Assembly: GCF_003633615.1 (NCBI RefSeq)
Contig: NZ_RBKU01000001.1
Location: forward strand, 1 to 64,000
Length of the DNA: 64,000 nucleotides
Source: Mucilaginibacter gracilis
Lineage (GTDB): Bacteria; Bacteroidota; Bacteroidia; Sphingobacteriales; Sphingobacteriaceae
Direction of reading: 5' to 3'
Below, one piece after another: positions 9,318 to 55,370 of the stretch. The notes under the pieces are model-generated. The model was not told the origin of the DNA. It was given only the letters and a program-made list of their open reading frames with translations, and did not search any database. How positions within the stretch are numbered: the stretch's first letter is position 1; each line of letters opens with the position of its first letter. Position numbers and translations under genes: made by a program.

Positions 9318-12137
9318 TCACCTGACCGAAACAACACCGCCTAAACCAACTCTTTCTCCGGCTTCGCTTTCGATCAAGACGCTGATGGTGCGTTCCCCTT
9401 TAATTGCCGGGACACTTATCGTTATGTCAGCACCCGCACCAGTATTTTTATAAAACAGGCGTTTGCTATCTAAATAAACTTCGGCTTTACCAGTCAGTTT
9501 TTTCAATACCAACTGGCATCCCTTTTCCTGTTGTTCTGTATAGGGGGTAAAGGTGGTCCTGTAAATCACAAAACTACCATCAGTTAGCGTTTGTAACTGC
9601 CCTGGCTTTACCGGCGCCCAGCTATTCATATCGTTAGCCGCAATTTGTTGATTCGCGTCGGGCTTAGTTTTACTTACGGGCGATATCCTCCAGTCATCCA
9701 ATACCATATCCGGCTGCGTAACGGACACAAAAGCAACACTTGCTTTTGGCCTTACGCCTATGGTGACCCTGGCGGGCCTCAAACCTGGTGAGCTTGCCGT
9801 CAAAACCAGGGTCCGGTCAGCATTAGCGCGGCTTTGCAGAATAACTTGGGCCAAGCCATTATACAAGCTACGTTTACTGCCTTTATCTGGCTCATGGGAA
9901 TTCGGATCGCCGTTACCCAGGCCAATAATATCCCCCGGTCCGGTCAGCTCGAACTCAATAGGCAGGTTGGCGGTAGGCACCGGCCTCCCGCTCCGGTCTA
10001 TTGCCTGTACCGTAACCGGTATGGCATCCCAGCCATCACCTTGTATATCAGCCCTATCGGTAGTTAACCGAATACTGACCGGTTCACCTGTAGTTTCTAC
10101 TTTAAAGTGCGAAACTTCCTTGCCACCCCGAGAACCAATGGCTTCTAAAATACCGGGATAATACGGCACCTCCCAGCTGTTCATTTCGTATCGATCTACC
10201 TTTTGCTCACTAACTACTTTTCCGTTCAATACTAATTTCACGGTTTCGGCATTGCTCTCAGCCATAACGTGGATAGGTTTACCGATCATAGCTGCCGGCC
10301 AGTTCCAGTGCGGTTCTATATGCAGAACAGGTTTATCATTTACCCATTGGGCCTGGTGTATATAAAATGCTGTTTTAGGAAAACCACAGGCGTCCATAAT
10401 ACCAAAGTTTGAACCTGCAGTTGGCCAGTTATAGGGTGTTGGCTCGCCACGGTAATCAAAGCCGGTCCAAACAAAACACCCGGCCAAATACGGGCGTTCA
10501 GCAATTGCTTTCCAGGATACACGGTGCGTTGCGCCCCAGCCCGGAGCCTGAGTATCGTAAGAATCCAAAGTATGCCGGGCCTTATCTGTGATATATACCC
10601 CACGCTGCATTAATCCCGATACATCTTCCGAACTCGTCAAAGATAGCGTAGGATGCTCCCTGTGAAATTGATCGTAGCTACCCTGCTGATAATTAAAGCC
10701 TACAACATCGACTGCCTGAGACACATTCACCGGGGCGAATAAACCACCGTTCATAGCTGCCGTGACCGGGCGCGAGGTATCCAGCTTTTTAACTTCAGCG
10801 CTCAGGCGGCGCACCATTTCATACCCTATTTCGGTACCCTGCATAGGTTCCTCGTTAAATACCGACCAAAGTATGATACTGGGGTGGTTCCTGTCCCGCC
10901 TAACCATCCACCGCAACTGCGATATATATTCAGGCGAAGAATTAAAATTCCGGTTTTCGTCCATCACCATGATCCCTAACCTGTCACAGGCATCCAAAAA
11001 CTCAGCCGATGGCGGGTTATGCGCGCAGCGATAGGCGTTAACACCCATTTCTTTCAGCTTACGCAGCCTGAACTCCCAAATGGAGCCAGGCACCGCCACA
11101 CCAACACCGGCTGCATCCTGGTGGTTACATACCCCTTTTATTTTCAGGCGCTTTTCATTCAGATAAAAACCCGAATCGGCAGTAAATCTAAGAGTGCGGA
11201 AACCACAAGAGGTCACCAAGGAATCAGTTGTGATCCCATCCAGTTTAACCAAGGTTACTACGTTGTATAGGACTGGGTTATCCGGTGACCATAATCCGGG
11301 ATGGCTTACCTGAAGCGCGATGTTAGCTACCGATCTATCAAGCGGGGCAATCATGGCCGATGTATTACCCGAGGTAATTTTCTGACCTCTTTGATCAAAT
11401 ACGCTAATCTCGATACCTGCTGTTAATGGTAATTTACCGGAGTTTTCTAAAGTGATTTCGGCAGGTATATCCCAGCTCCCCTGGGCGTTCTTTACAGGAT
11501 GTGCATATACACCATCGGTAATAATGTGTGCCGGCGCGTGTTTGACCAACCAGGTATGCCGGTAAATACCTGCCCCCTCGTACCACCAGCCTTCCTGATC
11601 AACAGCGTTTACCTGTACAGCCACCGTGTTTATTTCATCGCCATATTTGGCTAATGCTGTTATATCAATATAAAACGAAGTATAACCACTCCAGTTACGG
11701 TGCACTACTGTACCGTTTATCCAAACCGTACAGTGCGTAGCCACGCCATCAAATTGTAATTCTAAATGCTTACCCCTATCATCGGTATTCAATTTAAAAT
11801 ATCGGCGGTACCAGCCCATACCCCGCATACGGTAACCTTGCGAAATATTTTCATTTTGGTCAAAAGATGTTTCAACCGACCAGTCGTGCGGCAAGGTCAC
11901 TTTTCGCCAGCTTCGGTCATCGTAACCCGGCGCGGCAGGCCCGGGTGCATTACCGGCCTTCGCATTCATATAGCTCTCACTGTGCCCTTTGATAACCGGG
12001 AAAGCAATATCGCCCATATGAAACAGCCAGCCTTGATCCAATGATAATTTTTGATAATTGTTAGCGGGATGCTGCGCTGCTGCCGCAAATGAAAGCGATA
12101 GCAGTAAAAACACCAGTTTGTAGGCAGACTGTTTCAT
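9318..12137 (-). CDS. Secreted GH2 beta-galactosidase-like enzyme
   Basis: The protein has 939 residues with a signal peptide ending near AAAAQ (residues 18-22). The order is: sugar-binding jelly roll (about 30-200), immunoglobulin-like domain (about 205-310), TIM barrel (about 315-600), then C-terminal beta-domains of the DUF4982/invasin-like type. The acid/base is Glu429 in WSVFNEEP; the nucleophile is probably Glu504 in SLTSSED. Members with this layout are exo-acting beta-galactosidases or related enzymes on plant glycans. It is last in the minus-strand group of GH29 and beta-helix genes, 202 bp after its neighbour, and may have its own weak promoter. Specificity is inferred only. Confidence 0.88.
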   Translation of the reverse strand: MKQSAYKLVFLLLSLSFAAAAQHPANNYQKLSLDQGWLFHMGDIAFPVIKGHSESYMNAKAGNAPGPAAPGYDDRSWRKVTLPHDWSVETSFDQNENISQGYRMRGMGWYRRYFKLNTDDRGKHLELQFDGVATHCTVWINGTVVHRNWSGYTSFYIDITALAKYGDEINTVAVQVNAVDQEGWWYEGAGIYRHTWLVKHAPAHIITDGVYAHPVKNAQGSWDIPAEITLENSGKLPLTAGIEISVFDQRGQKITSGNTSAMIAPLDRSVANIALQVSHPGLWSPDNPVLYNVVTLVKLDGITTDSLVTSCGFRTLRFTADSGFYLNEKRLKIKGVCNHQDAAGVGVAVPGSIWEFRLRKLKEMGVNAYRCAHNPPSAEFLDACDRLGIMVMDENRNFNSSPEYISQLRWMVRRDRNHPSIILWSVFNEEPMQGTEIGYEMVRRLSAEVKKLDTSRPVTAAMNGGLFAPVNVSQAVDVVGFNYQQGSYDQFHREHPTLSLTSSEDVSGLMQRGVYITDKARHTLDSYDTQAPGWGATHRVSWKAIAERPYLAGCFVWTGFDYRGEPTPYNWPTAGSNFGIMDACGFPKTAFYIHQAQWVNDKPVLHIEPHWNWPAAMIGKPIHVMAESNAETVKLVLNGKVVSEQKVDRYEMNSWEVPYYPGILEAIGSRGGKEVSHFKVETTGEPVSIRLTTDRADIQGDGWDAIPVTVQAIDRSGRPVPTANLPIEFELTGPGDIIGLGNGDPNSHEPDKGSKRSLYNGLAQVILQSRANADRTLVLTASSPGLRPARVTIGVRPKASVAFVSVTQPDMVLDDWRISPVSKTKPDANQQIAANDMNSWAPVKPGQLQTLTDGSFVIYRTTFTPYTEQQEKGCQLVLKKLTGKAEVYLDSKRLFYKNTGAGADITISVPAIKGERTISVLIESEAGERVGLGGVVSVR

Positions 12138-12339: not shown

Positions 12340-14691
12340 TTACTTGATCACCGGTGTGGCCCCGTCATCTAAAACGACATAGCCGGATGGTTTAACATTC
12401 GTTTCAAGCTTTTTATCAACCTCGCTGTAGTGGTTATTATGGATCAGTACATTTGAGGTATTGCTACCGCTACCACCCAGCATAACAGCTGTTTTGGCGA
12501 TAGAAAAACTATTATCCTCGATAATAACATCGTTAACGGCAAAGGGATTACCCCCCGGCGATGTGCGGATGTAGGAGTATTGGCTTAACCGGTTACGCCT
12601 GATGATCGTCCCGATACTTAAACCCGTGCCGCCAGCACCGATCAAGGTAATACTCTGATAACCCGAGTGCCCTCGATCATCGATCCCCCACCAGTGGCTA
12701 TAATTGCCCTCTTTAAATTCGCAGTTCACGATATCGATATACCAGTTGGGCTGCTTTCCATGGTACAATAAGGAGCCACGGCCAACAATACCGTTACAAC
12801 GGTTCATTTTCAAACCCGATATCACAGCATTAACAGTAGATCCATAAAACTGGTAAGCTCCGGCATCTGTAACTGAGTTATTGACAAACGCAAAATTATG
12901 CCTAACGGTAGTCACGCTTAAAATAGATGTAGCATCGGGCGTGACCACCCAGGGATGATCAACTTGAATCGTGTCCTGCCCATGCTTTACAATCCTGCGA
13001 AATTGACCGGCGCCTTTACCTTCAATGATAAATAAACCGCCGCCAATCCATTTATTATTTACCCATTGGAATTTATTAGTAGCATCGGAAGGAAGGATAA
13101 CCGTTGTACCATTTGCGCTTACTATTCCACCTGCATAGCCGCCGCTCCCGCCATCAAAGGTCATCGCTTCACGGTCGTTTGTATAGTTGTATGGAATGGT
13201 ATTACGCGCTTCGTAAAAATCATGGCTCTCATCCACTGTTGCTGCATAGCCATAGCCATCGGCTTGCTTGTAGCAATCTTCAAATATTAAACCCTTGGGG
13301 TGCACCAGCATATAAGGTTGGTTAACCCCTGTTCCCTTACGCTCAAATCTGCAGTTTTGTATAAAGCCGCTTGCCGCAAAAAACGTATACATACCCGCTG
13401 AGTTAAACTCGCAGTTTCTGATCTTCAGGTTTTCGCCACGCAAAATGATGCCTGTTTTCGTCCAGCGGCTATTGATCTCGGCTTCCACCACGTCCCGGTT
13501 AGCTTTGACCTGGTATATCTTGCCTGATAATTCGGCATTTTGCCTAACCAGCAAATTTTCGAGGGTAACCTGCCCCTGCTCTGTAGGCGGACCTGTTTGC
13601 ATGATCACCCCCCATGCCCTTGACGACCACAACACCATATCCCGGATGGCGAAATGGTGCGTGCCGCTAATCAGGCTATTCGGCAATTCATTGGTATCCC
13701 AGCCCAGCGGGTTCCAAAATAATTGTGTAAGATCTCTCGACTCGCCTTTAAGCTGTGTATAGGGTGACATAATCAGGTCACCTGTTAACTGGTAACGACC
13801 ACGCGGTACATAAACTGTTCCGCCGCCATTTTTACCGGCAGCATCAAGGGCAGCACGAAAGGCATTAGTTTCGTTATTTAAACCATCCCCTTTTGCTCCA
13901 AAATCTTTTACGTTAAAAACCTTTTTATCCCAAAGATCAACGCTTTTGTTTACAACCGTTATTTTTAACGGTTCGCTCCAAGCAGTTTTACCACCCTGAC
14001 CATTATGATAATATAGGTGGTATTCACCAACAGGCACATTAGCCGGGATATTAATACTCACAGAATAATCATCAAAAGCTTTACTCACCTTTACCCGGAC
14101 TATATTTTTACCGCTAACAGGTATTAATACTACCTGCCCTGTTAAACCTTTACGTAACAGGTTTTTGCCTTGTACACGTAAGTAGTTGCCAGCGGTAGCT
14201 TTCAAAAACCCTTCTTCGCTGATGGCCCAGTTCACTTTAGGTGCATTTACATAAAATCCGGCAGATTCTACCCCTCCTATCAGCTTCACACTGTAAACGC
14301 CCTCTTGCCAGTTGCCCGGGATTATAAATTTAAGAGATTGTTCATTTTGCAGTATTTTTTTAACCGATATACTTTCGCCTTGAGTTAAAGCATTTACTCT
14401 TTTATTGGTACCGCCATTATCAATCTGGTTATCTTCCCGCGGCAGCGGAACATAAGCAGGCAAAGTAATATCTACATTGTCATCCGTTAAGCGATTTACT
14501 TGTATGGCGTTCACCTTATCCAAAAAATCACCGCGCACTTGTACTGCGTCTCCAGGGCGGGTTTCCGCAGTACTCACCTGGAACAGTTTAGGCGAATTAT
14601 CCTGTGAAAAAGCTGGGATCGTAAAAAGCATCAGCACTAAAGCAGCCATAAGGCGGCTATATGAATTTGTTATCATATAAATGTTTTTCAT
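12340..14691 (-). CDS. Secreted right-handed beta-helix protein with IPT-like N-terminal domains
   Basis: The protein has 783 residues with a signal peptide (LMAALVLMLFTIPAFSQ). Residues about 35-250 form two Ig/IPT-like beta-domains. From about 260 the pectate-lyase-superfamily signature begins (VFNVKDFGAKGDGLNNETNA, then GGGTVYVPRGRYQL), followed by repeated beta-helix turns to the C terminus. This fold occurs in GH28, polysaccharide lyases and epimerases. The catalytic residues cannot be assigned by eye. It lies 5 bp downstream of the jelly-roll gene and is likely co-transcribed with the fucosidase. It probably cleaves or binds the backbone of the target glycan (inference). Confidence 0.75.
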   Translation of the reverse strand: MKNIYMITNSYSRLMAALVLMLFTIPAFSQDNSPKLFQVSTAETRPGDAVQVRGDFLDKVNAIQVNRLTDDNVDITLPAYVPLPREDNQIDNGGTNKRVNALTQGESISVKKILQNEQSLKFIIPGNWQEGVYSVKLIGGVESAGFYVNAPKVNWAISEEGFLKATAGNYLRVQGKNLLRKGLTGQVVLIPVSGKNIVRVKVSKAFDDYSVSINIPANVPVGEYHLYYHNGQGGKTAWSEPLKITVVNKSVDLWDKKVFNVKDFGAKGDGLNNETNAFRAALDAAGKNGGGTVYVPRGRYQLTGDLIMSPYTQLKGESRDLTQLFWNPLGWDTNELPNSLISGTHHFAIRDMVLWSSRAWGVIMQTGPPTEQGQVTLENLLVRQNAELSGKIYQVKANRDVVEAEINSRWTKTGIILRGENLKIRNCEFNSAGMYTFFAASGFIQNCRFERKGTGVNQPYMLVHPKGLIFEDCYKQADGYGYAATVDESHDFYEARNTIPYNYTNDREAMTFDGGSGGYAGGIVSANGTTVILPSDATNKFQWVNNKWIGGGLFIIEGKGAGQFRRIVKHGQDTIQVDHPWVVTPDATSILSVTTVRHNFAFVNNSVTDAGAYQFYGSTVNAVISGLKMNRCNGIVGRGSLLYHGKQPNWYIDIVNCEFKEGNYSHWWGIDDRGHSGYQSITLIGAGGTGLSIGTIIRRNRLSQYSYIRTSPGGNPFAVNDVIIEDNSFSIAKTAVMLGGSGSNTSNVLIHNNHYSEVDKKLETNVKPSGYVVLDDGATPVIK

Positions 14692-14696
14692 AGGTT

Positions 14697-16082
14697 TTAT
14701 TTTTTGGCAGGCGGAGTAACAGTTTCATATTTTTTCAGATACTCCGGTATCGGGGCATCATAATAATCTTGCAGGTAATTATCGGCAACTCCGTTTATAG
14801 GGTCCTCAATTTTTATTACTTCAAGGTTATCCAGGTTCATGCTCACATCAATAAACTTTAAGCAAATACTGCCATATGTTACCGGATGATCGGTATCTAC
14901 ACCTTCAATAACCTTTTTGCCATCGTAATAAACCTCGTAGCTCCGGTCCAACATTTTTACTGCCAGGTTATGTTTTGCACCATCAAAATATCGAGGAACA
15001 TTGACTGATTTTGAAAACGAGATTACGCCCGCTTCATTTTTTTCAAAAAACAGTTTGTTACCTTCCCGCAATGCGACACTGTAATAGCGTGGTGTACCGT
15101 AGGTGGCAATATTTTGATAACGGACCTGCATCTGAAATTCAGTTGTTGCTTTACTGGCGGTATCAAACGACACATCTATTCCGACCTGATAATCTGCCCA
15201 TTTTTTGTTGCCGAGGTAAAAAGTGCCATCCCCAACTTTTCGCCAGTACCTGCCCCCATCTTTATCAATGGGCAGGTTACCATATTTGATACCGGCCCAA
15301 ACTGGATTGATGATACTCGCCGGGGCATTGGAGAGGCTGCCATCGTCAAAATTATCACGCAGTAAAGTGCCTGGTTTAACCGGCATCTTATCTTTGAAAT
15401 CCTTTTCTGGGGCGATAAAGTTCTCTTCGTAATGAAATGTCCAGTCGCTGAACGTTACATCCATATTAGGGTTGATCTCTTCACCGTAGCCAACCTGCGA
15501 ACTACTACCCGAGCAGCCGTAAAAACCAATCAATTGTTCTGGCCCGACTTCGGCAATAGCCGAAGCGCCTTTGGCCCATTCCCCTTTTTCGGTTTTATAA
15601 TAACTGGTAAACACCGTTCCCTGCCGAACGAGCTTGAGCTCCATAGGGAAAGGCAGGCTGCCGGCCACACGCGTGTAGGATGTCATCTCGCTATCGGTTT
15701 TGCGCCAAAACAACAACACATCGCCGGTTGCACCTACTTCCAGATGTACATTGGCCGCGCCAACGCCGATACCCGACCGCATCATGATACCCGCCGTGCC
15801 TATCTTAAATTTGTTGATCTTCACAGTTACAGTCGATTTTGAACAATCATCGTATGGGAATGGTTGTTTTTGCCATGCAAAGCTATACGAGTCGGCATCG
15901 TAAAAACAATGCTGCGTTTTTTGGCTGTTGAGGTGCATGACACCTTTCTCCTGGCTAAGCTTACCACCAGAACCCGGCCCGAAATTTCCAAACTCAAATT
16001 GTTCTTTTCCCACCGTTTGCGCACGGGCATGATGAAACACAAATCCAGATAGCAGCATCAGGTAGAGGATCGTTCTTTTCAT
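14697..16082 (-). CDS. Secreted protein with two concanavalin A-like jelly-roll domains
   Basis: From the ATG at 16082 the protein has 461 residues and a clean signal peptide (MKRTILYLMLLSGFVFHHAR); this start overlaps the fucosidase stop as ATGA. Two beta-sandwich modules are seen (about 25-215 and 240-425), the second with WADYQVGIDVSF and YYSVALREGNKLFFEKN, the style of LamG/DUF1080-like domains. No catalytic signature is visible. A glycan-binding role, or a hydrolase of the 3-keto-glycoside type often annotated for DUF1080 folds, is possible but unproven. Tight coupling to GH29 suggests they act on the same chain. Confidence 0.7.
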   Translation of the reverse strand: MKRTILYLMLLSGFVFHHARAQTVGKEQFEFGNFGPGSGGKLSQEKGVMHLNSQKTQHCFYDADSYSFAWQKQPFPYDDCSKSTVTVKINKFKIGTAGIMMRSGIGVGAANVHLEVGATGDVLLFWRKTDSEMTSYTRVAGSLPFPMELKLVRQGTVFTSYYKTEKGEWAKGASAIAEVGPEQLIGFYGCSGSSSQVGYGEEINPNMDVTFSDWTFHYEENFIAPEKDFKDKMPVKPGTLLRDNFDDGSLSNAPASIINPVWAGIKYGNLPIDKDGGRYWRKVGDGTFYLGNKKWADYQVGIDVSFDTASKATTEFQMQVRYQNIATYGTPRYYSVALREGNKLFFEKNEAGVISFSKSVNVPRYFDGAKHNLAVKMLDRSYEVYYDGKKVIEGVDTDHPVTYGSICLKFIDVSMNLDNLEVIKIEDPINGVADNYLQDYYDAPIPEYLKKYETVTPPAKK

Positions 16083-17521
16083 ATTGTCTTTGTAATTGGG
16101 CCTGTAGATACGATTTTGAACACCCATACCGGCTGCCCGGCGGCTTGCTGCGCTATAGGTTCGGGGATATTCACTTCGATCTTATCGCCCGCTTTTTTCC
16201 ATTTTAAAGATTTGTTGCTGCCCAGCAAAGTTACAACGGCGCTGTTAGATATTGCCGGCGCATAAAAGCGCACGTTTGAAGCCAGTTTCATCTCTTTTTC
16301 GTCGGGCAGGTAGGACGCGTAAAGCGCTTTCCCTTTAGCCGTATATCCCCATTTATCCTGGCGGTAAGGCGCAACTGGCTTAGCGCCGTATATGGCTTCG
16401 CCATTGACCTTGATCCATGCCCCTATTTCATTCAGGCGATCATAAGCTTCCTGGTGCCACTCACCATCCGGCCCGGGGCCGATATCCAATAAAAGGTTAC
16501 CATTTTTGGCGACTACATCAACCAGTATTTGGATCAGCTTGCGGGCGGGTTTGTATTCTTCTTTTTCAACGTAACTCCACGATCTGCCCATGGTCATGCA
16601 GGTTTCCCAGGGGTGCGGGATAAAGTGGTCCGGCACTTTTTGCTCTGGCGTTAAATAGTTCACATATTCAGGTTTGCCGTGGCGGTCAACGATGATAACG
16701 CCAGGTTGGTTTTTACGTGCCATGCCAACAATATCAGTCATATCCATTTTGGCCCAGTCTCCGTCGAACCATAATAAATCTATCTTGCCATATTCCGAGG
16801 TGATTTCATTTAATTGGTTATACGTGTAGTCGGTAAATCTTTTCCACCTTTCAGGATATTTGCCGCGGTCGTAGCTTTCCGTCCGGTCTTTTGGGGGAAA
16901 ATAGGACCACCAGTAATCTTCGCTGTGCCAATCGGGCTTCGAATAATAGGCCCCGATCATAAAATCCTGTTTTCGGAAAGCATTAAATATCTCCTTAGTG
17001 ACATTACTTTTAGGATTTGACGAAAAAGGCGTTTTTGAACTGGTTACTTTGTAGTCCGTGAATTTGGTATCGTACATGCAAAAGCCATCATGATGCTTGG
17101 TGGTAAAAACAACGTATCTCATGCCCCCTGCTTTAGCAGCCGCAGCCCACTTGCCCGGGTCGAATTTAACAGGATTGAATTGCGTCTGGAGGTTTTCATA
17201 AGCCTGCTTATAGCCTGCCCATGTTGCCGAACTTGGGCCTTTACGCTGTGTAAATCCCCTATCTTCCGGACAAAGCGACCAGGATTCAACAATACCCCAA
17301 ATGCTATAAGTACCCCAATGCATAAACAAGCCGAATTTTAGGTCCTGCCATTCAGCTATCTTTTGTTTTACTTTAGGATCGGTCGGTTCCTGGTAAACCT
17401 TTTCGGGATCGTACGAGGTTGCATCCTGTGCTTTTACTTTTTGGGCCGTTAGGTTACCAATGCATAAAAGCATCAGTAACATTACAGCCTTGTTGATTGG
17501 TTTGATGGTTTGTTTATTCAC
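16079..17521 (-). CDS. Alpha-L-fucosidase, GH29
   Basis: The protein has 480 residues. The likely start is GTG at 17521, since an in-frame stop lies just upstream, and a signal peptide follows (VMLLMLLCIGNLTAQ). GH29 hallmarks are FGLFMHWGTYS (63-73), TKHHDGFCMYDT (141-152) and LLWFDGDW, whose Asp253 should be the nucleophile. A C-terminal beta-domain follows from about 370. GH29 enzymes release terminal alpha-L-fucose with retention. The gene lies 11 bp after the 814-residue protein and overlaps the next gene by 4 bp, so it belongs to the operon driven from about 20048. Confidence 0.92.
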   Translation of the reverse strand: MNKQTIKPINKAVMLLMLLCIGNLTAQKVKAQDATSYDPEKVYQEPTDPKVKQKIAEWQDLKFGLFMHWGTYSIWGIVESWSLCPEDRGFTQRKGPSSATWAGYKQAYENLQTQFNPVKFDPGKWAAAAKAGGMRYVVFTTKHHDGFCMYDTKFTDYKVTSSKTPFSSNPKSNVTKEIFNAFRKQDFMIGAYYSKPDWHSEDYWWSYFPPKDRTESYDRGKYPERWKRFTDYTYNQLNEITSEYGKIDLLWFDGDWAKMDMTDIVGMARKNQPGVIIVDRHGKPEYVNYLTPEQKVPDHFIPHPWETCMTMGRSWSYVEKEEYKPARKLIQILVDVVAKNGNLLLDIGPGPDGEWHQEAYDRLNEIGAWIKVNGEAIYGAKPVAPYRQDKWGYTAKGKALYASYLPDEKEMKLASNVRFYAPAISNSAVVTLLGSNKSLKWKKAGDKIEVNIPEPIAQQAAGQPVWVFKIVSTGPITKTI

Positions 17522-17532
17522 AGTTTATAATT

Positions 17533-19977
17533 TTACTTGGCAAGGTCAATCGCTATAACACTCATTCCCCAGGGTTTTATTTTCAGGTCAACAGTTCCTT
17601 TTGCAGCATTGGCCCAACTTTGATCACCTTGCAAAACAACACTCTTACCCCATTTGGTAATTTTCCCATCGCCAATTTTTGATACATCAATAGCCATGGA
17701 ACCGCTTTGTGCTAAAGGAGACTGGTTCAAAACCAATACATACAACTTATCTTTCTGCAGTCCCAAGGCACCAACATATTCAAAGTTGGGATTTTCACTT
17801 TTAAGCAAGCCTACGGGCATACACAGGTTGGCCTTATTGCCATAAACATCGCCCGGCGCAAACCCATAGGATACATGCGGCCCAACCTTGGGTGTCATAA
17901 ACCCGCTCGGGAATTCCACTTTGCCGCCTGAGCGCAAATGCGCTTCGGATATTAAATAATCCGTTATCCAGCCGATCTGCCAAAAGGCATGATGCGGGAA
18001 CACTTTAGCCCCTTTAGCAACATTTTCAAGGGCGCTCCAGTAATAAATACTTTGGCCGTTCTCCGCATCAACATAGGCGTCCCTACCGCGCGCTGCAACA
18101 CGCGCCATGTGCAAAAACAAGCTATCGTTGGTCATCTCGAACATCCGGGTAAACAGGCCCGCGAAACTTGATATTAAAATAGGTCCGCCGCTGGCAGTGC
18201 CTTTAATGTGCTCGACACTCAATCCAGCTTCGGCAATTTCCCAGTCCTGGCGCTCCATGTTGCCTACTTTCTTAATTTTTGTTGTGGCAATGGGTTGGGT
18301 AAAGATCGATGTTGCGTATATTTTTGCTGCCTCTATCGCCGCCTTCTTATAATAACCGTTCTTTGTGGTTTTGTACAGTTCCAGCAGCGATTCCGAACAT
18401 TGTGCCGTGGCAAAGTCCCAGATATTACGCGCATCGCCGCATACACCTAAATAATACCCTTTATCAACACCATTCTTCACCAGCCAATCCGCACCTTTTT
18501 TTGCCGCATCCAAATATTTTTGATCGCCCAATATGCGATAAGCGATCAGTAAGCCATACCACGTTGGGCGCAAATCTTGAAGATCAGGAAAACTCAATTG
18601 ATGGCTCACCCTATCATAAGCCACATCAAAACCACCATCAGCATGTTGCCAGGCTATCAATCTATCGGCGGCAAGTTTTACGCGTTCGCGTAATTCTGGA
18701 TCGTTGGGTTTAAATAGCAACATATTACCCATATCCATTAAGGTATAATAGGTAGTGTAAAGAGGTTCTACCCAATTACCTCGTTCACTTCCCACACCAT
18801 CCTCATCAGCATATTCACCCATCGCGCCGCCGTAAAAAAAACCTTTATCAGTTTCCTGTATCGCCAATTTATAATTACGCACAAAAGGCAGGTGCTTTTG
18901 CATGGCCGGATTATTTCCGGCGAAAGCCAGCATACAAAACGCACCTACATCCGCGTTTTTCTGCCCGTTGGCACCAATTTGCAATCCCTTGCATTCCCAG
19001 GTTGTCCAGTTTGATTTTTTATCGTTTTGTAGATAATCCTGCATCAGGCTGACCCTTTCGGATAGTGAGCGTTTTTCCTGCTGTATGTTCAGCATGTTCG
19101 AAAACTGGTAGATATCATTTACCGCATGCGTAAAAACCGGGAACCAATCCGCTGCCTGTATCGAATACCGGAATTTGAAAGCAACAGTTTCTCCTGGATT
19201 GATCAACGAGCCAACCTGACCCAAAACCGGAGAATAAGCCACAGGTGTTAATTGGTTATGGCGATCCATGGTGGACATGCCAACTTTATTCAATCCCTTT
19301 GTGATCGAATCTTTCTCGTACGAATCTGCCCCCATTCCCGGGTCAGGTATGACCGCCAAGGTGACTTTATCTTTTGTGGTTAACATTGGGCTTAATGTCA
19401 TGGTGTTACGCTCTTTAGCCAAAGCCGGCACCGACGGCAAACCCATACTGTATTTGGTGGCCAAACCAACATCGTTCTGTATTTCGCGGCCGTACCAGTT
19501 ACCCGGGATCATCCCCCACGATAAATTATTAGGCTCAAGTACCGCAACAGTTGGCGTCCCTATTGAAAACGAACCTCTAAGTTTAGCTTTTACCATAATT
19601 TCGACATGGATATCGGTAGGATAATTGGGATCGATCTTCCACGTTGATTCCATGACGCCAAAACGCAATTCCTGGGTGAACGTAATCGTACCATCTGCTG
19701 ATTTTTTTGCGATTGACGGGTAAAAGGTATATGCTTTTCCTTCTATATCCTGATCAACCAATGCTGGCGCAGGTTTACGGTTTAAGTATATAATAGTAAA
19801 AGCTCCCGATGGATTAGCCAATGTTTTGCCACCCGCATTAATACTGCTGATATGCCAGCCATCTTTCTCCTGTGTCCAGGATACTTTTAACTGTTTGGAT
19901 GATAAACTAATATCGTACTGGGCATATAAAGCCTGCGATGTAAGCCACAAAAAGCAGGTAACTAATGATCTTTTCAT
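17533..19977 (-). CDS. Secreted beta-sandwich plus (alpha/alpha)-toroid protein, candidate glycosidase
   Basis: The protein has 814 residues with a signal peptide ending near LYAQ. The first 300 residues are beta-rich. From about 310 to 680 there is a helical repeat region with tyrosine- and tryptophan-rich loops typical of six-hairpin glycosidases (WQHADGGFDVAYD, DLRPTWYGLLIAYRIL, FFYGGAMGEYADEDG, HHAFWQIGWITDYL). The last 120 residues are again beta-strands. I do not recognise a CAZy family. It is the first gene of the fucosidase operon, right behind a tandem operator. An exo-glycosidase or lyase role is likely but unproven. Confidence 0.75.
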   Translation of the reverse strand: MKRSLVTCFLWLTSQALYAQYDISLSSKQLKVSWTQEKDGWHISSINAGGKTLANPSGAFTIIYLNRKPAPALVDQDIEGKAYTFYPSIAKKSADGTITFTQELRFGVMESTWKIDPNYPTDIHVEIMVKAKLRGSFSIGTPTVAVLEPNNLSWGMIPGNWYGREIQNDVGLATKYSMGLPSVPALAKERNTMTLSPMLTTKDKVTLAVIPDPGMGADSYEKDSITKGLNKVGMSTMDRHNQLTPVAYSPVLGQVGSLINPGETVAFKFRYSIQAADWFPVFTHAVNDIYQFSNMLNIQQEKRSLSERVSLMQDYLQNDKKSNWTTWECKGLQIGANGQKNADVGAFCMLAFAGNNPAMQKHLPFVRNYKLAIQETDKGFFYGGAMGEYADEDGVGSERGNWVEPLYTTYYTLMDMGNMLLFKPNDPELRERVKLAADRLIAWQHADGGFDVAYDRVSHQLSFPDLQDLRPTWYGLLIAYRILGDQKYLDAAKKGADWLVKNGVDKGYYLGVCGDARNIWDFATAQCSESLLELYKTTKNGYYKKAAIEAAKIYATSIFTQPIATTKIKKVGNMERQDWEIAEAGLSVEHIKGTASGGPILISSFAGLFTRMFEMTNDSLFLHMARVAARGRDAYVDAENGQSIYYWSALENVAKGAKVFPHHAFWQIGWITDYLISEAHLRSGGKVEFPSGFMTPKVGPHVSYGFAPGDVYGNKANLCMPVGLLKSENPNFEYVGALGLQKDKLYVLVLNQSPLAQSGSMAIDVSKIGDGKITKWGKSVVLQGDQSWANAAKGTVDLKIKPWGMSVIAIDLAK

Positions 19978-20047: not shown

Positions 20048-20134
20048 CAATATTACTCTTTATATAATTCAAATTGTTAAAAACACCCCGTATAACAAAT
20101 GTGGGAATGTTCCCAATACATGGGAATGCTCCCA
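20048..20134 (-). promoter_or_regulatory. Tandem operator and -7 box for the fucosidase operon
   Basis: TGGGAATGTTCCCA (20102-20115) and TGGGAATGCTCCCA (20121-20134) start 19 bp apart. On the minus strand the -7-like box TAATATTG (20055-20048; one mismatch) starts 46 bp beyond the proximal site. The downstream gene starts at 19977. Confidence 0.82.
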
Positions 20135-20182
20135 ATTGGCAATAAAAAAAAGCAACAGGCCTTAAACCTGCTGCTCCCACAT

Positions 20183-21877
20183 TTATTTACATTGATCTAA
20201 AATCCGCTGCCTGTTTTTGGATAAACGCCATATAAAGTATGACGAAATAAAGATAACCGCACCAACAGTTACCACTATAGCCGAATACTTTGGCGCAATA
20301 TATCCAAGTACCATAATGCCAAAACCCACCACACCTATCGAAATGCCAATCACACTTATCCCAAAAATATTTTGCCTCTCGGCCTCTTTGTGATGCGTTG
20401 CTGATTCTGCCACGGCATCGTCGGCCAGTATCTCCTGCTCAATTAATAAGGCGCCGTAGGCAATCTGGCCCTTGTTACGATAGTAAATTTCAAAAAGTCC
20501 TAATATTAAAATTGGCAAACCTACTCCCAACATGGTTTCAACTGTGCGATTAAACTTGATCTGTAGCGCAACCGGACTTATTACTTTAAAAAACAGGTTG
20601 ATCAATAATGATATTATCGTAGCCATAATTACGCTCAGCGATGTTTGATATCTCGAAAACAACGACCATACAATTGGTGCAAACAAAGCCCCACCAGCTA
20701 TTGAAGCTATACTTAATACCACCTCAACAATACCACCAGCCCTCGGTATCAATATGGCAAATATGATCGTGCCAATCCCAAATAACAAAGTAAATAAGCG
20801 GGCAATCAATATCACTTCCTTTTCGGATGCTTTGGGGCGCATCAGGTTTTTATATAAGTCCGTCGCGAAAACCGTGGCCGCTAAATTTATCGTCGTGTTG
20901 GCCTTACTTGATGTTGCGGATATCATCCCGGCCAATACCAATCCTATTAAGCCCGCGGGCATTACCCTTTGACAAAGCATCATATAAGCACCTTCGGGTT
21001 CCAACCCATGTAAATTTGGATTGATAATACGGTAGATCATGGGCGGCAACATCCATATCAATGGACTGATCAGGTATAGCCCGGTAAATATCCAGGCTAC
21101 TTTTTTGGCGTTACGCTCGGTAGCAACACTTGTATACCGCTGTACATAACTCCAATTACCACCAATATAAACCGTTTGGTAAACAATAAAGGCCAGCATA
21201 AAACCGAAAGTATAATCGGCATTAAAGGGCTTGAAAAAATCGGCAGGGGCTTTATCAATTAAATTATGTACACCGCCAATTTGTGTAAATGCTATCGGGA
21301 TAACAATAACAACCGATGCGCTCAATATTACAAATTGCACAACATCGGTAACCAAAACCGCCCACAAGCCACCGGCCGCGGTGTATAATACGATAATTAA
21401 GCCGATACCAATAATGCAGCTATTTAAATCGAATGGTGTTGATACCTGCACCATTTTACCAACTGGGTATAATACCGAAGCAGTTGTAAATAAACTTAGC
21501 GCTAATATAAGGTAGGTATAAAACTGCTTTGATCCAGGCCCAAAACGCTTTCCTATATATTCGGCGGCCGTTTTAACTTTTGTTTTTTTCCATTTGCCTG
21601 CTATAAATATGGCCACGAGTAAACCGCTTATGGCCATGGTCAACTGTATCATATTAGATACTAAACCAAACTTATAAGCTATAGATCCCCATACCACGAA
21701 CGTGCCTGCCGAGAAGTAACTTATAAATAAGGATAACCCGTTTATCCACCATGGCGTTTCGCCACCGGCCTCAAAAAACGCCTGCCCGTTTTTACTGCCG
21801 GCGCGGGTAAAAGTTAAACCTATGCCAAATATAAGCACGGCAAAAACAGACATAACAATAAAATCTAACTGTACCAT
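20183..21877 (-). CDS. Sodium:solute symporter (SSS family)
   Basis: The protein has 564 residues and about 14 predicted membrane spans. The N-terminal region has the SSS pattern: GGETPWWINGLSLFISYFSA, a long loop with KTAAEYIGKRFGPGSKQF, and SATSSKANTTINLAATVFAT. SSS proteins couple sodium entry to uptake of sugars, uronates or amino acids across the inner membrane. The gene is divergent from the LacI-family regulator, with one operator between them, so it likely imports the monosaccharide or keto-sugar released by the PUL. The substrate cannot be told from sequence. Confidence 0.9.
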   Translation of the reverse strand: MVQLDFIVMSVFAVLIFGIGLTFTRAGSKNGQAFFEAGGETPWWINGLSLFISYFSAGTFVVWGSIAYKFGLVSNMIQLTMAISGLLVAIFIAGKWKKTKVKTAAEYIGKRFGPGSKQFYTYLILALSLFTTASVLYPVGKMVQVSTPFDLNSCIIGIGLIIVLYTAAGGLWAVLVTDVVQFVILSASVVIVIPIAFTQIGGVHNLIDKAPADFFKPFNADYTFGFMLAFIVYQTVYIGGNWSYVQRYTSVATERNAKKVAWIFTGLYLISPLIWMLPPMIYRIINPNLHGLEPEGAYMMLCQRVMPAGLIGLVLAGMISATSSKANTTINLAATVFATDLYKNLMRPKASEKEVILIARLFTLLFGIGTIIFAILIPRAGGIVEVVLSIASIAGGALFAPIVWSLFSRYQTSLSVIMATIISLLINLFFKVISPVALQIKFNRTVETMLGVGLPILILGLFEIYYRNKGQIAYGALLIEQEILADDAVAESATHHKEAERQNIFGISVIGISIGVVGFGIMVLGYIAPKYSAIVVTVGAVIFISSYFIWRLSKNRQRILDQCK

Positions 21878-21973: not shown

Positions 21974-22060
21974 CTAATATAGCAGAATTAATAGCAACCC
22001 TATCGCTCATTAATGCAACAATAACCTTGGGAGTGTTCCCATTTTTTGGGAAGAAAATCA
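21974..22060 (-). promoter_or_regulatory. Operator between the symporter and the LacI-family regulator
   Basis: TGGGAGTGTTCCCA (22028-22041) is well conserved. The second copy, TGGGAAGAAAATCA (22047-22060), keeps only the first half-site but the same 19-bp step. The minus-strand -7-like box TATATTAG (21981-21974) starts 46 bp beyond the proximal site and would serve the symporter. For the regulator, a TATATTTA box at 22082-22089 lies much closer, so autoregulation there may work differently. Confidence 0.75.
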
Positions 22061-22110: not shown

Positions 22111-23145
22111 ATGAAGAACCACCAGATCACCATTATTGACATTGCCAAAGAACTAAACATTTCTAAATCAACCGTTTCAAGGGCTCTGACGGGTCACCCA
22201 AACGTAAAATCGGAAACCAGGAAGGCCGTACTTGACCTGGCCGAAAAAATGGATTACCAGCGAAATATGCTTTCTATTAGTTTGATCACTAATAAAAGCT
22301 ATACCATTGGAATTATCGTCCCCGAATTCATGACCTCTTTTTTTCCGCAGGTTGTCGTTGGTGCGCAGGAAGAAGCCGCCAAAGCGGGATACAACGTGAT
22401 CATCAACCAATCCAATGAGAACTACAAAACTGAGGTAGCAAATTCTAAGGTCATGTTGTCCAGCCAGGTTGATGGGGTATTGGTTTCGATGAGTAAAGAA
22501 ACCCGGAATTACGATCACCTGAAGAAATTTCAGCGCAAAGGCATCCCAATCGTATTTTTCAACCGCGTTTGCGATGAGATGATGGTGCCGAAAGTAGTGG
22601 TTAATGACCATGACGCGGCTTTCAGAGCGGTCGAACATTTAATACAAACAGGCCATAAACGCATAGCGCATTTAGCCGGGCCCGACAGCTTGGCCATCAG
22701 CCGCAAAAGATTAAATGGTTATTTAGATGCCTTAAAAAAATACGATATACCGTTTTCCGAAGACCTCGTGATACAGTACGATCTGACCTTAAGCAAGGTT
22801 AAAATTTATATCAAACACCTGATGAGCTTAGATCCTCGTCCTGATGCCTTATTCGCGGTAAACGACCCTACTGCCATCGAGGCTATGCAGGTGATCAAAA
22901 AAATGGGACTACGCATTCCGGAGGATGTTGCAATTGTGGGATTTGGAGATAATTATGGTTCAAGTTTTATCGAACCCAGCTTAACTACGGTTAGCCAGCC
23001 TGTACAGGAAATTGGCCGGACCGCCATGACCTTGCTCTTGGGAATGATCAATAAAGATATGTCGCAATGGAAGGCAGTAACGAAATCACTGGAGGCCAAG
23101 CTCATCATCCGTAATTCGAGCAAAGCAAATAAAAAAACGCTTTAA
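22111..23145 (+). CDS. LacI/GalR-family transcriptional regulator
   Basis: The protein has 344 residues. The helix-turn-helix and hinge helix lie at residues 5-57 (IIDIAKELNISKSTVSRAL), followed by the periplasmic-binding-protein-like sensor domain (IGIIVPEFMTSFFPQVV to VSQPVQEIGRTAMTLL). LacI-family operators are 14-16-bp palindromes with a central CpG or TpG, which is what the repeated TGGGAAYGYTCCCA sites look like. It is the only regulator of this type in the window and sits in the middle of the PUL, divergent from the symporter. It is therefore the best candidate to read these sites. The operator position upstream of the core promoter hints at activation (inference). Confidence 0.92.
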   Translation: MKNHQITIIDIAKELNISKSTVSRALTGHPNVKSETRKAVLDLAEKMDYQRNMLSISLITNKSYTIGIIVPEFMTSFFPQVVVGAQEEAAKAGYNVIINQSNENYKTEVANSKVMLSSQVDGVLVSMSKETRNYDHLKKFQRKGIPIVFFNRVCDEMMVPKVVVNDHDAAFRAVEHLIQTGHKRIAHLAGPDSLAISRKRLNGYLDALKKYDIPFSEDLVIQYDLTLSKVKIYIKHLMSLDPRPDALFAVNDPTAIEAMQVIKKMGLRIPEDVAIVGFGDNYGSSFIEPSLTTVSQPVQEIGRTAMTLLLGMINKDMSQWKAVTKSLEAKLIIRNSSKANKKTL

Positions 23146-23146
23146 C

Positions 23147-25423
23147 CTAATAACACCTGATTGCGAAAACCGCGGCCGGCACATTTGCCGATGGGTGTTC
23201 TACCACTATCGTAAGTTTACTGGTGGTAATCGGTTTATCGAACCGGATCGTATTGCGCGACTGGTAGTTGCCTGTTTTGGAATATATCACCTTATTATGA
23301 TCATCACATATTTTATAATTACGGACACAGAATGGCATAACCGTTTCCGGATGTGTCATGAGCACAGATTCCATGGGATGATCAAAATCGGTATCAAACC
23401 AGAGCTCTATTTTATTGATCTGTTGCGGTATCTCCCACTGCACCGTAATGGCAGGTTCAGCATCATTTAGATCAGCGGCCCAGGCGTTCGGCTGAGTAAC
23501 GGGCCTGTCAATCCCATTCCTAATATTTTCAATGCCAAAAACAGCCAGGCCGGGCTCTATTTTTAAAGCTATATTTTGCCCTTCCGGGCGGCGCTCAGGG
23601 CACCAAAATTCAAACTCATCAACCCCGATATCTTCCGGAGGCACCTGTTTTCCATAATTTGATACCGCTTTATTGACAAGATTAAATACCGATAATATAC
23701 CGCTGACACGCTGATGAGAGCGATACAGTTTAACTAAAGGATTTTTCAGAAAGGTTAGAAAAGCGTATGTATCATCCTCTAATTGCACTGAAAAATCTGC
23801 CTGAATGCAATTACGCCCCGGCTGTATATTAAAAGTTTGTTTGGCTACGGTCACATCAGGTGTGAAATTTCCCTGCCTGCCACTCAGACGAAGCTCTACC
23901 TCTAATTCACCATACCCGTCCGAATCGGCATGAAATACAATAGCGGGTACTTCCCCTTTGCCAAACGGTAGCATTTGCGCGACGTCAATATCCAGTTCGC
24001 GCCTGCTGTTACCTTCCGGCAATTCTGTTAATACGAGTTCGCTTGAGGCGCTTAATTTTGCAAATTGAACCAAGTCGTCCTTATCTTTCAAAACTATACC
24101 TGGTATATGTTGACCATTTTTCAACAGATTATGCTGTAGTTCACCTATCAAACCCTTATTGTAAATATCAGCCGGCACAAGGCCCTTGTCCTTACACAAT
24201 TGAGCCGCCAATGCAACGGCCTGCGCGCAATAGGCCCCTGTAGCCATTACCCTTGTAGAACCAAAAGCCACATGTGTAGCGCTGATAATACGCCCGGTTA
24301 AAAACAGGTTATTGATATCTTTACTGTATAAACTACGGTAAGGGATCTGGTAAAGCCCTTTACTGTGCCACTGGTTACAGCCGGGCTTTTCACTGAAGAT
24401 TCCGTCAGCGGGATGCAGATCTATTGACCATCCTCCGTAAGCCACCGCATCATCATGTGCGCGCTGGGCAATAATATCCTGTTGCTTGATGATATAGTCG
24501 CCCATAAAACGGCGGCTTTCGCGTTTACCGGGTATCATACCGACCCACTCCAGGGTCAAATTTTCAGCTTCCGGAAACTCGCCCGAGTTCTTGATATAGT
24601 TCCAGGCACCGTAAACCACCTTCCACAGCTCCCATTTAATTTTTTCGGTATCGTGTATAGTATCTAAGCGCCCCCCATATTCAAGCCACCATAATTTGCA
24701 ACCGTAGTCTTTTGTATTAAAAGACCGGAACTTGGGTATCTGTGTAATATCGGCCATGGCAAAGTCCGGAGCATGATATTTTACAGGTTTTCCGCTATCC
24801 TTGCTATAAAAATAAAGGCTGTGGCCCAATAACTCCCCATACGCCTTTGATGGCGCGAATTTTTCATCAAACTCTTGCCGGTTTTCTGCTCCCATCCTAA
24901 ATGAAGCACCGGATAAAAAGCCTATGATACCATCGCCTGATGCATCACAAAATAAAGGCGCCCTTAATTCATACTCGGTTGAATTTTGACTGCAAAAACC
25001 GTTCACCTGCGAAATGGTACGATCGTCAGATTTTAACAAACTATGCACCGAAGTGTTTAACAATAAAGTGATATTGGGTTCGCTTACCACTTTATTTAAT
25101 AAAATAACGTCAAATATCAGCGGATTACCCTCCGGGTTTTTATAAGTATTTTCAACTAATATTTCATCAACCAGTCCGCCTTCGCGCGCCCAACGGTTGT
25201 TATTGCCCATATGCGATGTCGCGCCTAATATCCACAGTCTAACCTCGCTCGAAGAATTACCGCCCAGGACAGGCCTGTCCTGCACCAATACCACTTTTAA
25301 CCCGGCGCGTGCCGCCGTAACGGCGCCGCATACACCGGCAAGGCCACCGCCAACGATAACAAGGTTGGCAGTCATGCGCTCAACCTTTAATTCCCTCGAA
25401 GATGTAAAATTCTCTTTTATCAT
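23147..25423 (-). CDS. FAD-dependent oxidoreductase with C-terminal discoidin-like region
   Basis: The protein has 758 residues. The dinucleotide-binding motif is VIVGGGLAGVCGAVTAARAG (22-41), followed by VLGGNSSSEVR, typical of the FAD_oxidored family. A second FAD-contact segment is DASGDGIIGFLSGASFRMGAE, and a third NNLFLTGRIISATHVAFGST. From about 590 to the end there is a beta-sandwich resembling F5/8 type C domains. No signal peptide is seen, so it is likely cytoplasmic. It has its own operator and -7 box inside the 3' end of the preceding gene. It may oxidise an imported sugar; the true substrate is unknown. Confidence 0.85.
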   Translation of the reverse strand: MIKENFTSSRELKVERMTANLVIVGGGLAGVCGAVTAARAGLKVVLVQDRPVLGGNSSSEVRLWILGATSHMGNNNRWAREGGLVDEILVENTYKNPEGNPLIFDVILLNKVVSEPNITLLLNTSVHSLLKSDDRTISQVNGFCSQNSTEYELRAPLFCDASGDGIIGFLSGASFRMGAENRQEFDEKFAPSKAYGELLGHSLYFYSKDSGKPVKYHAPDFAMADITQIPKFRSFNTKDYGCKLWWLEYGGRLDTIHDTEKIKWELWKVVYGAWNYIKNSGEFPEAENLTLEWVGMIPGKRESRRFMGDYIIKQQDIIAQRAHDDAVAYGGWSIDLHPADGIFSEKPGCNQWHSKGLYQIPYRSLYSKDINNLFLTGRIISATHVAFGSTRVMATGAYCAQAVALAAQLCKDKGLVPADIYNKGLIGELQHNLLKNGQHIPGIVLKDKDDLVQFAKLSASSELVLTELPEGNSRRELDIDVAQMLPFGKGEVPAIVFHADSDGYGELEVELRLSGRQGNFTPDVTVAKQTFNIQPGRNCIQADFSVQLEDDTYAFLTFLKNPLVKLYRSHQRVSGILSVFNLVNKAVSNYGKQVPPEDIGVDEFEFWCPERRPEGQNIALKIEPGLAVFGIENIRNGIDRPVTQPNAWAADLNDAEPAITVQWEIPQQINKIELWFDTDFDHPMESVLMTHPETVMPFCVRNYKICDDHNKVIYSKTGNYQSRNTIRFDKPITTSKLTIVVEHPSANVPAAVFAIRCY

Positions 25424-25441: not shown

Positions 25442-25527
25442 CAAATTAAATAGTATTCTCAAAGGCCTTTCTTTGATTACGGCGATAAACATTGTGGGAA
25501 CGTTTCCAAAGCTTGGGAACGTTTCCA
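25442..25527 (-). promoter_or_regulatory. Tandem operator inside the 3' end of an SGNH gene
   Basis: Two identical sites TGGGAACGTTTCCA (25495-25508 and 25514-25527) start 19 bp apart. The minus-strand -7-like box TTAATTTG (25449-25442; one mismatch) starts 45 bp beyond the proximal site and overlaps the stop codon of the upstream SGNH gene. The FAD oxidoreductase begins at 25423, leaving a very short leader. Confidence 0.78.
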
Positions 25528-29037: not shown

Positions 29038-29991
29038 TTATTGTATAGTAAGCGTAATCTGTTTAACCACTTCCTCGTTGCCGTAAACACTGGCATTGGC
29101 GGCCGTAAAGGTAACCACGTAAGTGCCCGCGGTCTTGAAAGTATATGTATAATCGTTGCTGGCCAACCGGGCTGATGATTCTTTGACAAAAGTACCGACA
29201 TCGTTTGACACTTTATTAAGCACGATGCCGCCGCTGTAAGCCCAATCGTCTATCGCCACCGTTGCCGTAGCGGCAGTCGCCGCACCGGTTACCACGAGCG
29301 ATGTACCCGCGGTAACGACCCAGTTTGCTGTGTTGTTCAGCCGGAAGGGCACCCAGCCGGGGCTGAATACCGTCGCTACGCCATAATTGGTGATCGCGGT
29401 CGAATTCAGGTTAGCAATCGTGTATACACTGCCATCGGCCAGCGTATTCGTCACGGTCAGTCCCGTGATCGTCCATTTATTTTGGATAGCCCCTGTTGTT
29501 GCCAGGTACCTGAAGGCGATATATACCGGCTTATCTGCGGGGAAATCCGATAGGTCAATGGCGCCGGAGGCTACAGCGGTCGCGCTTGTAGCCAGGGTTG
29601 CCCGGCCGGTGATATCTGTCCATGTGGCGGCCGCGATATTTTTAGCTGTCGTTGCCGAATCGATTCCCATACCCGCGAAATTACTCGACACCAGCACCAA
29701 TAAAGAATTGGCCTGGGTACCCGCATTACGTGCCGAAGTAAATTGCAATTTCGGGGTACCGGCCGCGTTGTACCTGTTCAGGTTAGCATAATTTAACCCC
29801 TGTTCTCCGGAGAAGAACGTAATATAATCCGGGTTGCCCGACAGGTGGAAGGTAACTGTGGAACCCACCGCCCAGGTGGTTTTATCCACGGTGACATTGA
29901 AATCTGGTGCAACCTCTTTTTCTTTGATTTTGAGACATCCTGTGCCAAAAAGCGCGATAGCTGCAATGGCGGTAAATACTATTTTTTTCAT
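29038..29991 (-). CDS. DUF5017-like surface lipoprotein (SusE/F-type position)
   Basis: From the ATG at 29991 the protein has 317 residues and a lipoprotein signal with lipobox LFGTGC (Cys19). The Ig-like start FNVTVDKTTWAVGSTVTFHL fits DUF5017. A longer frame starting at 30024 would overlap SusD but spoil the signal peptide. A second PKD-like strand set ends with GTYVVTFTAANASVYGNEEV. It sits directly downstream of susD, where glycan-binding SusE/F-type lipoproteins are found, so it may help capture the glycan on the cell surface. Confidence 0.78.
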   Translation of the reverse strand: MKKIVFTAIAAIALFGTGCLKIKEKEVAPDFNVTVDKTTWAVGSTVTFHLSGNPDYITFFSGEQGLNYANLNRYNAAGTPKLQFTSARNAGTQANSLLVLVSSNFAGMGIDSATTAKNIAAATWTDITGRATLATSATAVASGAIDLSDFPADKPVYIAFRYLATTGAIQNKWTITGLTVTNTLADGSVYTIANLNSTAITNYGVATVFSPGWVPFRLNNTANWVVTAGTSLVVTGAATAATATVAIDDWAYSGGIVLNKVSNDVGTFVKESSARLASNDYTYTFKTAGTYVVTFTAANASVYGNEEVVKQITLTIQ

Positions 29992-30017
29992 ATACTTATA
30001 ATTAACCGGTGAATAGC

Positions 30018-31886: not shown

Positions 31887-31896
31887 GATCAAAAAA

Positions 31897-34800: not shown

Positions 34801-35049
34801 ATCAACGGTAGTTTTAATGGTATATTTGCCGGCTTTATCGGTTGAGACGGCAACATTTGGGGCGCTCTTGATTTTCACGGTCACACCGGCCAGCGTTTCA
34901 CCGTCTGAGCCCTTGACAACTCCTGAGATGATTTTTTCGCCCTTGGTTTGCGCTGAAGCGTGGGAAACCACAGCCAGGAGCAATAGCCATAAGGCCAAAA
35001 ATCGCAAAGAGAATCTGGAAAACTTAAAAAAGTAAACAGGTTTCATCAT
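31897..35049 (-). CDS. susC: SusC/RagA-family TonB-dependent transporter
   Basis: The protein has 1050 residues. Order: signal peptide ([17 protein letters not shown]), carboxypeptidase-regulatory-like domain (about 38-125, [20 protein letters not shown]), plug domain with [19 protein letters not shown] and [20 protein letters not shown], and a 22-strand barrel ending in [14 protein letters not shown]. It has no STN domain, so it is not expected to signal through FecR; the upstream LacI-type operator fits. It is the first gene of a six-gene operon with SusD, DUF5017-like and three SGNH genes. Confidence 0.95.
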
Positions 35050-35089: not shown

Positions 35090-35175
35090 CAAATATAGCT
35101 GCGTATCACATCCACATCCTTTTTCCGGACGCCTTATCTACTTGGGAATGTTCCCATTTTTTGGGAACGCTACCA
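35090..35175 (-). promoter_or_regulatory. Tandem operator and perfect -7 box for the susCD operon
   Basis: TGGGAATGTTCCCA (35143-35156) and TGGGAACGCTACCA (35162-35175) start 19 bp apart. The minus-strand -7 box TATATTTG (35097-35090) matches TAnnTTTG and starts 45 bp beyond the proximal site. I see no good -33 TTG between them, as expected for an activator-dependent promoter. Confidence 0.85.
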
Positions 35176-49361: not shown

Positions 49362-49382
49362 TTTGAGGGATAAATTGGCGTC

Positions 49383-52831: not shown

Positions 52832-52839
52832 ACGGCCTT

Positions 52840-55364: not shown

Positions 55365-55370
55365 GCCCAT

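Follow-up and report, generated by a model that had tools for sequence, protein, structure and literature searches.

The fucosidase operon of Mucilaginibacter gracilis opens with a gene for an 814-residue protein. The question this locus raises is what that protein does. In what follows, the window is the whole stretch of DNA that was analysed, 64,000 nucleotides long. A preliminary description of the window, made from its letters alone, is taken up where results bear on it.

The gene and its relatives

The gene and its putative export signal are located as follows:

17533..19977, minus strand: predicted unassigned secreted (alpha/alpha)6-type carbohydrate-active enzyme (from the ORF, orthologues and AlphaFold2 models)
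19918..19977, minus strand: putative signal peptide, residues 1-20, ending in ...ALYAQ (sequence read by eye)

The 814 codons run from 19977 down to 17533; the preliminary description had proposed this reading frame without giving a strand. Judged by its relatives it is a real gene, since there are five orthologues in other taxa and large matches, at E 2e-167 or better, in 106 of the 222 genomes of one bacterial family, here called f68. With the threshold at E 1e-8, the number of f68 genomes with a match is 108. The five orthologues are 51-55% identical to the protein and come from a Cyclobacteriaceae MAG, a Bacteroidales MAG, Parapedobacter pyrenivorans, a Haloferula MAG and an Alistipes MAG.

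As sampled here, the distribution is patchy. Its own 6.66-Mb genome has one copy of the gene, and full-length matches are found in 2 of 199 close relatives and in 5 of 395 genomes at class level, the own genome being counted both times. In the remaining 12 relatives listed among the close genomes, the match is confined to the helical stretch. A tblastn search of plasmids with the protein returned zero matches, and a scan of IMG/VR gave 34 pattern matches and 0 relatives.

Some smaller proteins match only the barrel stretch. These are helical-repeat proteins of around 400 residues in L008, L009, L011, L012 and L025. In L011 and L025 the gene lies downstream of what, by eye, looks like a UDP-GlcNAc 2-epimerase gene.

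Transcription unit

The surroundings of the gene on the minus strand are:

20183..21877, minus strand: sodium:solute symporter, a conserved neighbour (Pfam PF00474, 6.6e-39)
20148..20178, minus strand: stem-loop resembling a terminator, 14 pairs with a T tail, after the symporter gene (pattern scan)
20102..20134, no strand: tandem operator pair TGGGAANNTTCCCA, 19 bp from start to start
16079..17521, minus strand: GH29 alpha-L-fucosidase, second gene (Pfam 1.8e-95; PDB 6gn6, E 1.9e-67)
14697..16127, minus strand: secreted protein of 476 residues, third gene, no Pfam match above cut-off
12340..14691, minus strand: pectate-lyase-like beta-helix protein, fourth gene (Pfam PF12708, 1e-17)
9318..12137, minus strand: GH2 enzyme (Pfam), possibly part of the same unit, after a 203-bp gap

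From the order of these elements, the 814-residue gene is read as opening its own transcription unit. Read along the minus strand, the order is the end of the symporter gene (20183), the hairpin, two palindromes and the start codon at 19977. The palindromes, TGGGAATGTTCCCA and TGGGAATGCTCCCA, are found at 20102-20115 and 20121-20134, 19 bp apart. The region has 5 terminator-like sites, where shuffling predicts 3.5. The GH29 gene starts 11 bp past the stop codon, and the spacing of the third and fourth genes is just as tight. The gene had earlier been placed first in an operon with GH29, behind a strong operator, and this turns out to be right. That it encodes a main enzyme of the locus is also supported.

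Family assignment

Going by profile searches, the protein belongs to a family that has no name in Pfam or NCBIfam. Pfam reports sub-threshold traces of GH127 (4e-5), GH88 (0.0013) and GH76 (0.033). The curated cut-offs are missed, with 23.2 bits against 24.9 for PF07944 (GH127) and 18.3 bits against 26.6 for PF07470 (GH88). The weak GH127 match spans residues 409-548. NCBIfam has no match for the protein, and a sequence search of the PDB gave no family signature. The earlier remark that no signature of a known family is visible thus holds for this protein with respect to Pfam above cut-off, NCBIfam and PDB sequences.

The further suggestion that the protein may found a new family is plausible on the libraries covered (Pfam, NCBIfam and PDB). 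The Pfam models for GH127 and GH88 do brush the family, and among ten relatives scanned, three pass the cut-off of the former and one that of the latter. Those that just pass do so over a short helical stretch only. Across 26 aligned sequences (25 members and one paralogue), GH127 and GH88 are each seen in 24 at 0.01 or better. A profile search of the PDB finds matches to GH76 and UGL that cover some 75 residues, at E 2e-4 to 0.02. Profile-profile comparison with hhalign yields a probability of 61% for GH127 over roughly 50-67 columns and 12% for GH88, where the controls (SusD, FAD oxidoreductase, GH2 and GH3) score 0.1-0.5%.

GH127 has (alpha/alpha)6 helical hairpins in common with the protein, in addition to the weak match, but the protein also has an N-terminal supersandwich. 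In GH127 enzymes invariant cysteines have a catalytic or zinc-binding role. All seven GH127 proteins of the same genome have three such cysteines, whereas the 25-member family has none; its best column holds a cysteine in 24 of 25. On the absent cysteines and the shortness of the match, GH127 identity is rejected.

GH88 and GH105 enzymes rely on a catalytic pair of aspartates, and the profile alignment to them is too short and weak to place that pair. Their barrel is alike in fold (Z 16.0 to UGL 2fv0) and PF07470 matches weakly, but the protein has two extra beta domains. No Pfam match at E 1 or better was obtained for GH95, GH65, GH94, GH78, GH15 or GH116, nor any NCBIfam match at that level for the first four. 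Taken together, this is what the traces of an unassigned sister family within the six-hairpin superfamily would look like.

Predicted structure

Two AlphaFold2 models, made from 6 sequences (pLDDT 67.4) and 7 sequences (pLDDT 65.8), concur on three domains:

19153..19914, minus strand: predicted N-terminal beta-supersandwich, residues 22-275 or so (AlphaFold2; VIA against 9ayu)
17917..19080, minus strand: predicted (alpha/alpha)6 barrel, residues 300-687 or so (AlphaFold2; VIA)
17539..17865, minus strand: predicted C-terminal beta domain, residues 705-813 or so (AlphaFold2 secondary structure)

The second model includes a distant paralogue, which lowers the overall pLDDT but sharpens the N-terminal domain. 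Model confidence is moderate, and lowest in the loops that hold many of the conserved residues. The preliminary description had sketched a beta-sandwich, six-hairpin-like helices and a C-terminal beta domain, and had seen in these the architecture of a glycosidase or lyase. The models agree with the sketch, and their three-domain fold supports that type of architecture.

For the N-terminal domain, VIA gives a match to the supersandwich of 9ayu, a GH36-like galactosaminidase (Z 18.2, 223 residues, rmsd 3.0). For the barrel, the best VIA matches are a D-mannose isomerase (Z 17.8, 321 residues, rmsd 3.9) and cellobiose 2-epimerases, which together span Z 17.8 to 17; GH76 and UGL have Z of about 16-17. 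That a family is missing from the VIA results was given no weight as evidence.

Foldseek finds GH15, GH94, GH65, GH97, GH116, GH52, GH95 and PL27 structures at E 3.6e-9 to about 1e-4, with some of the family numbers taken from record titles. The TM-scores are only around 0.15-0.27, because relative domain placement is unreliable in the models, and identity is near 10%. GH94, GH65, GH15, GH116 and GH95 have the same order of beta-supersandwich, (alpha/alpha)6 barrel and beta domain, but differ in the low identity and lack of Pfam match. A viral fold library gave only weak GH65/GH95-like matches.

The predicted (alpha/alpha)6 barrel places the protein in the six-hairpin superfamily at the level of fold. 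On these models the fold class is secure, but the chemistry is not.

A paralogous family and the conserved residues

An unnamed paralogous family, here called B, has proteins of 950-1138 residues and is homologous from end to end (hhalign probability 100%, E 2e-54, 735 columns). It differs from the 814-residue family in that identity is only some 21%, and in that most of the barrel acids invariant in the latter are not conserved in it. Its members are found at L002:15096-17963, L058:5461-8877, L064:11202-14081, L067:5670-8558 and L070:8299-11151; in four of 24 cases a B gene shares the locus of an 814-residue orthologue. The one B protein that was scanned, from L002, has no Pfam match, and the five together leave only weak traces in the PDB.

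Nine polar residues do not vary among 25 members or among the five paralogues: W324, E589, R632, Y645, H663, D673, S683, S138 and S257. A further eight are invariant in the 25 members and are not kept across the paralogues: D455, D468, R470, D515, D521, D578, E580 and H590. From this conservation, the invariant polar residues are candidates for a functional role.

Conserved neighbourhood

The uptake genes and the FAD oxidoreductase gene are:

29038..35049, minus strand: SusC, SusD and DUF5017 uptake genes
23147..25423, minus strand: FAD-dependent oxidoreductase (PF12831, Pfam 3.4e-91), no signal peptide seen, conserved partner

Annotation of 25 loci against the window proteins found the 814-residue gene in 24 (L070 has the paralogue only). 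Near it lie genes for SusC (23 loci), SusD (23), the symporter (20), the FAD oxidoreductase (20), GH2 (18), LacI (11), DUF5017 (4), GH3 (3) and GH29 (2), where loci end at contig ends or 20 kb and absences are lower bounds. The family travels with the same symporter and FAD oxidoreductase across many bacteria.

The f68 genomes give a second view of this linkage. The FAD oxidoreductase is found (E 1e-150 or better) in 113 of the 222. Both genes are present in 104 genomes, only the 814-residue gene in 2, only the FAD gene in 9 and neither in 107. In other words, the oxidoreductase accompanies the gene in 104 of 106 genomes, against 9 of 116 that lack it. This corresponds to a Fisher p of about 1e-49, for genomes that share ancestry and are not independent events. 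In 101 of the 104 co-occurrences the genes are at most 10 kb apart on one contig; in the other three they are on different contigs. As for the two exceptions, one genome (G604) is a poor assembly, and in the other (G676) the 814-residue gene is broken. A literature search on FAD oxidoreductases in polysaccharide loci found nothing specific.

These counts weaken the emphasis that the preliminary description had put on fucose. A GH29 gene is near in 2 of the 24 loci, against 20 each for the FAD oxidoreductase and the symporter. Fucose as general core substrate is rejected on this ground; in general it is probably not the core substrate, although it may be so in the window's own sub-group. In the window the GH29 gene adjoins the 814-residue gene, and in L003 and L006 it is found two genes downstream.

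Operators and regulon

Five more pairs like the one before the 814-residue gene are found in the window, as well as a probable regulator:

22028..22060, no strand: weaker pair between the symporter and LacI genes, with 3 mismatches and one good half
25495..25527, no strand: tandem operator pair, preceding the FAD oxidoreductase gene
35143..35175, no strand: tandem operator pair, upstream of susC
47373..47405, no strand: tandem pair (2 mismatches), about 700 bp before the first gene of a GH3/GH127/esterase block
49437..49469, no strand: tandem pair (1 mismatch), between the gene of a 654-residue protein and a cytochrome/DUF1553/DUF1501 operon
22111..23145, plus strand: LacI-family regulator (Pfam), likely operator binder

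Allowing up to 2 mismatches, the palindrome occurs 18 times in the window, where 3.8 are expected. For the tandem pair, with up to 3 mismatches allowed, the 6.66-Mb genome has 6 places with 10 strand-wise matches between them, all within the 64-kb window. A control with the reversed pattern gave 0 matches in the whole genome. Since no such pair lies elsewhere in the genome, the 814-residue gene is part of a compact regulon, probably under LacI control. The protein encoded at 22111-23145 likely binds the tandem operators. Pairs 19-20 bp apart are also seen in six orthologous loci out of the 24, namely L057, L058 (two), L059, L060, L062 and L071; in L057, L059, L062 and L071 the pair is flanked by lacI on one side and susC on the other.

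The window also contains some less expected genes. The operon at 49604-56813, behind a like operator, has a cytochrome c/DUF1549/DUF1553/DUF1501 set that is of planctomycete type, going by the Pfam name. The 654-residue protein at 47421-49385 has a twin-arginine-like start and the look of a helical repeat, and no Pfam match at 0.001. On the flanks of the regulon are TniB/TniQ and DDE transposase genes (Pfam) and, judged by eye, a transposase-like ORF, at 3293-5439, 7241-8767 and 59165-60286; the regulon may have been acquired by transfer.

Redox context

Further redox genes are found in the orthologous loci. A second FAD oxidoreductase, with a signal-like start in the examples read, is present in 10 of the 24, a protein with a D-x-x-[A/S/T]-G-A-T motif in 11, and an ApbE homologue (ApbE by Pfam, 2.5e-72) in 5. 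Motifs modified by ApbE are described as starting with D-x-x-[S/T] and ending in the modified Ser or Thr (PMC12052999). The fourth position is Ala in most of the motif proteins seen here, so flavinylation of these is only a guess. In the main text of an eLife paper on flavinylation (PMC8238504), the word 'polysaccharide' is absent.

In L061:2456-5432, L065:4647-8610 and similar places, a flavinylation-motif protein, a secreted-looking FAD oxidoreductase and ApbE are encoded within SusCD loci. Such sets may constitute a flavin chain in the periplasm that is linked to the use of glycans. Where relatives have the secreted-looking FAD enzyme, the motif protein and ApbE, the regulon of the window has the cytochrome c/DUF1553/DUF1501 operon.

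Proposed function and alternatives

The preferred reading, with a probability of roughly 0.5, is that the protein cleaves glycans in the periplasm, most likely as a glycoside hydrolase, and that its product is then imported and oxidised. SusCD would carry glycan fragments into the periplasm, where the enzyme would cleave them, most likely as an exo-acting glycoside hydrolase of acid/base (inverting) type. Its active site would be at the mouth of the helical barrel, with E589, H663 and D673 as first candidates because these are invariant in the paralogous family too. The released sugar or short glycoside would enter the cytoplasm through the sodium symporter, there to be oxidised by the FAD enzyme, and LacI would leave its operators when substrate or product is present.

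This reading is supported by the linkage to the FAD oxidoreductase, the frequency of SusC (23/24) and the symporter (20/24), the regulon-specific operators and the invariant polar residues. Also in its favour are the three-domain fold, common to GH94, GH15, GH65, GH116, GH52 and GH95 enzymes, barrel Z-scores of up to 17.8, and Pfam traces of GH127, GH88 and GH76 that fall in one stretch. Against this, model confidence is moderate, no active site was superposed, and PL26 lyases match the domains equally well (Z 16.9), which leaves hydrolysis and lysis unseparated.

A beta-eliminating polysaccharide lyase or uronate dehydratase on a like scaffold (PL26, PL27, the former GH154) is the alternative to take most seriously, if on balance an unlikely one. 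The PL26 exo-rhamnogalacturonan lyase resembles the protein in both large domains and their order. It aligns over residues 19-684 with a Z of 16.9 and 500 residues, but with an rmsd of about 26. The protein shows no profile-level sequence relation to the one PL26 member compared (L077, hhalign 0.3%), and PF21345 (PL26) has zero matches in the own genome. PL27 structure 5nok ranks seventh in Foldseek. The proposal to reclassify 'GH154' enzymes as uronate dehydratases (PMC12269599) shows how easily such folds mislead. The operon does include the pectate-lyase-like protein, but no GH88/GH105 unsaturated-uronide hydrolase was found in the window locus; the GH88 matches of this genome are elsewhere.

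Doubtful to a greater degree, and overlapping with the other readings, is an existing CAZy family that simply has no model in the copies of Pfam and NCBIfam used. A Pfam model is lacking for many of the more recent CAZy families. Searches of the literature by topic brought up no such name, and no paper on the protein's own family.

It is very improbable that the protein is an AGE-type sugar epimerase or isomerase embedded in a larger chain. The best barrel matches are indeed to such enzymes, but the GH76 and UGL barrels are within 1-2 Z units. The combination of supersandwich and C-terminal beta domain is also typical of glycosidases, and there is a signal peptide. A non-catalytic periplasmic glycan-binding protein would fit with the lack of a recognised catalytic motif of any named family, but hardly with a barrel that, in 25 members, is densely set with invariant acidic, aromatic and histidine residues, and is the least credible reading.

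What the finding means

New here are the window-restricted operator pairs, the linkage to the FAD oxidoreductase, and a full-length paralogous family as occasional neighbour. To return to the preferred reading of a periplasmic glycan-cleaving enzyme, the protein probably opens an undescribed route for the digestion of complex sugars. A bolder version, which we think improbable, is that it founds a new CAZy family and is the signature enzyme of a pathway of oxidative glycan degradation not described before, with a substrate or product that must be oxidised by a flavin enzyme. If that were true, cleavage would be coupled to sugar oxidation instead of being plain hydrolysis.

If confirmed, the finding would add a glycan-active enzyme family with a predictive context of SusCD, symporter, FAD oxidoreductase and LacI with tandem operators. 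That context spans several groups of Bacteroidota and one Verrucomicrobia MAG. With an uncharacterised FAD oxidoreductase linked to the gene almost without exception, a concrete question becomes testable, namely what sugar is oxidised, and why this cleavage would need oxidation.
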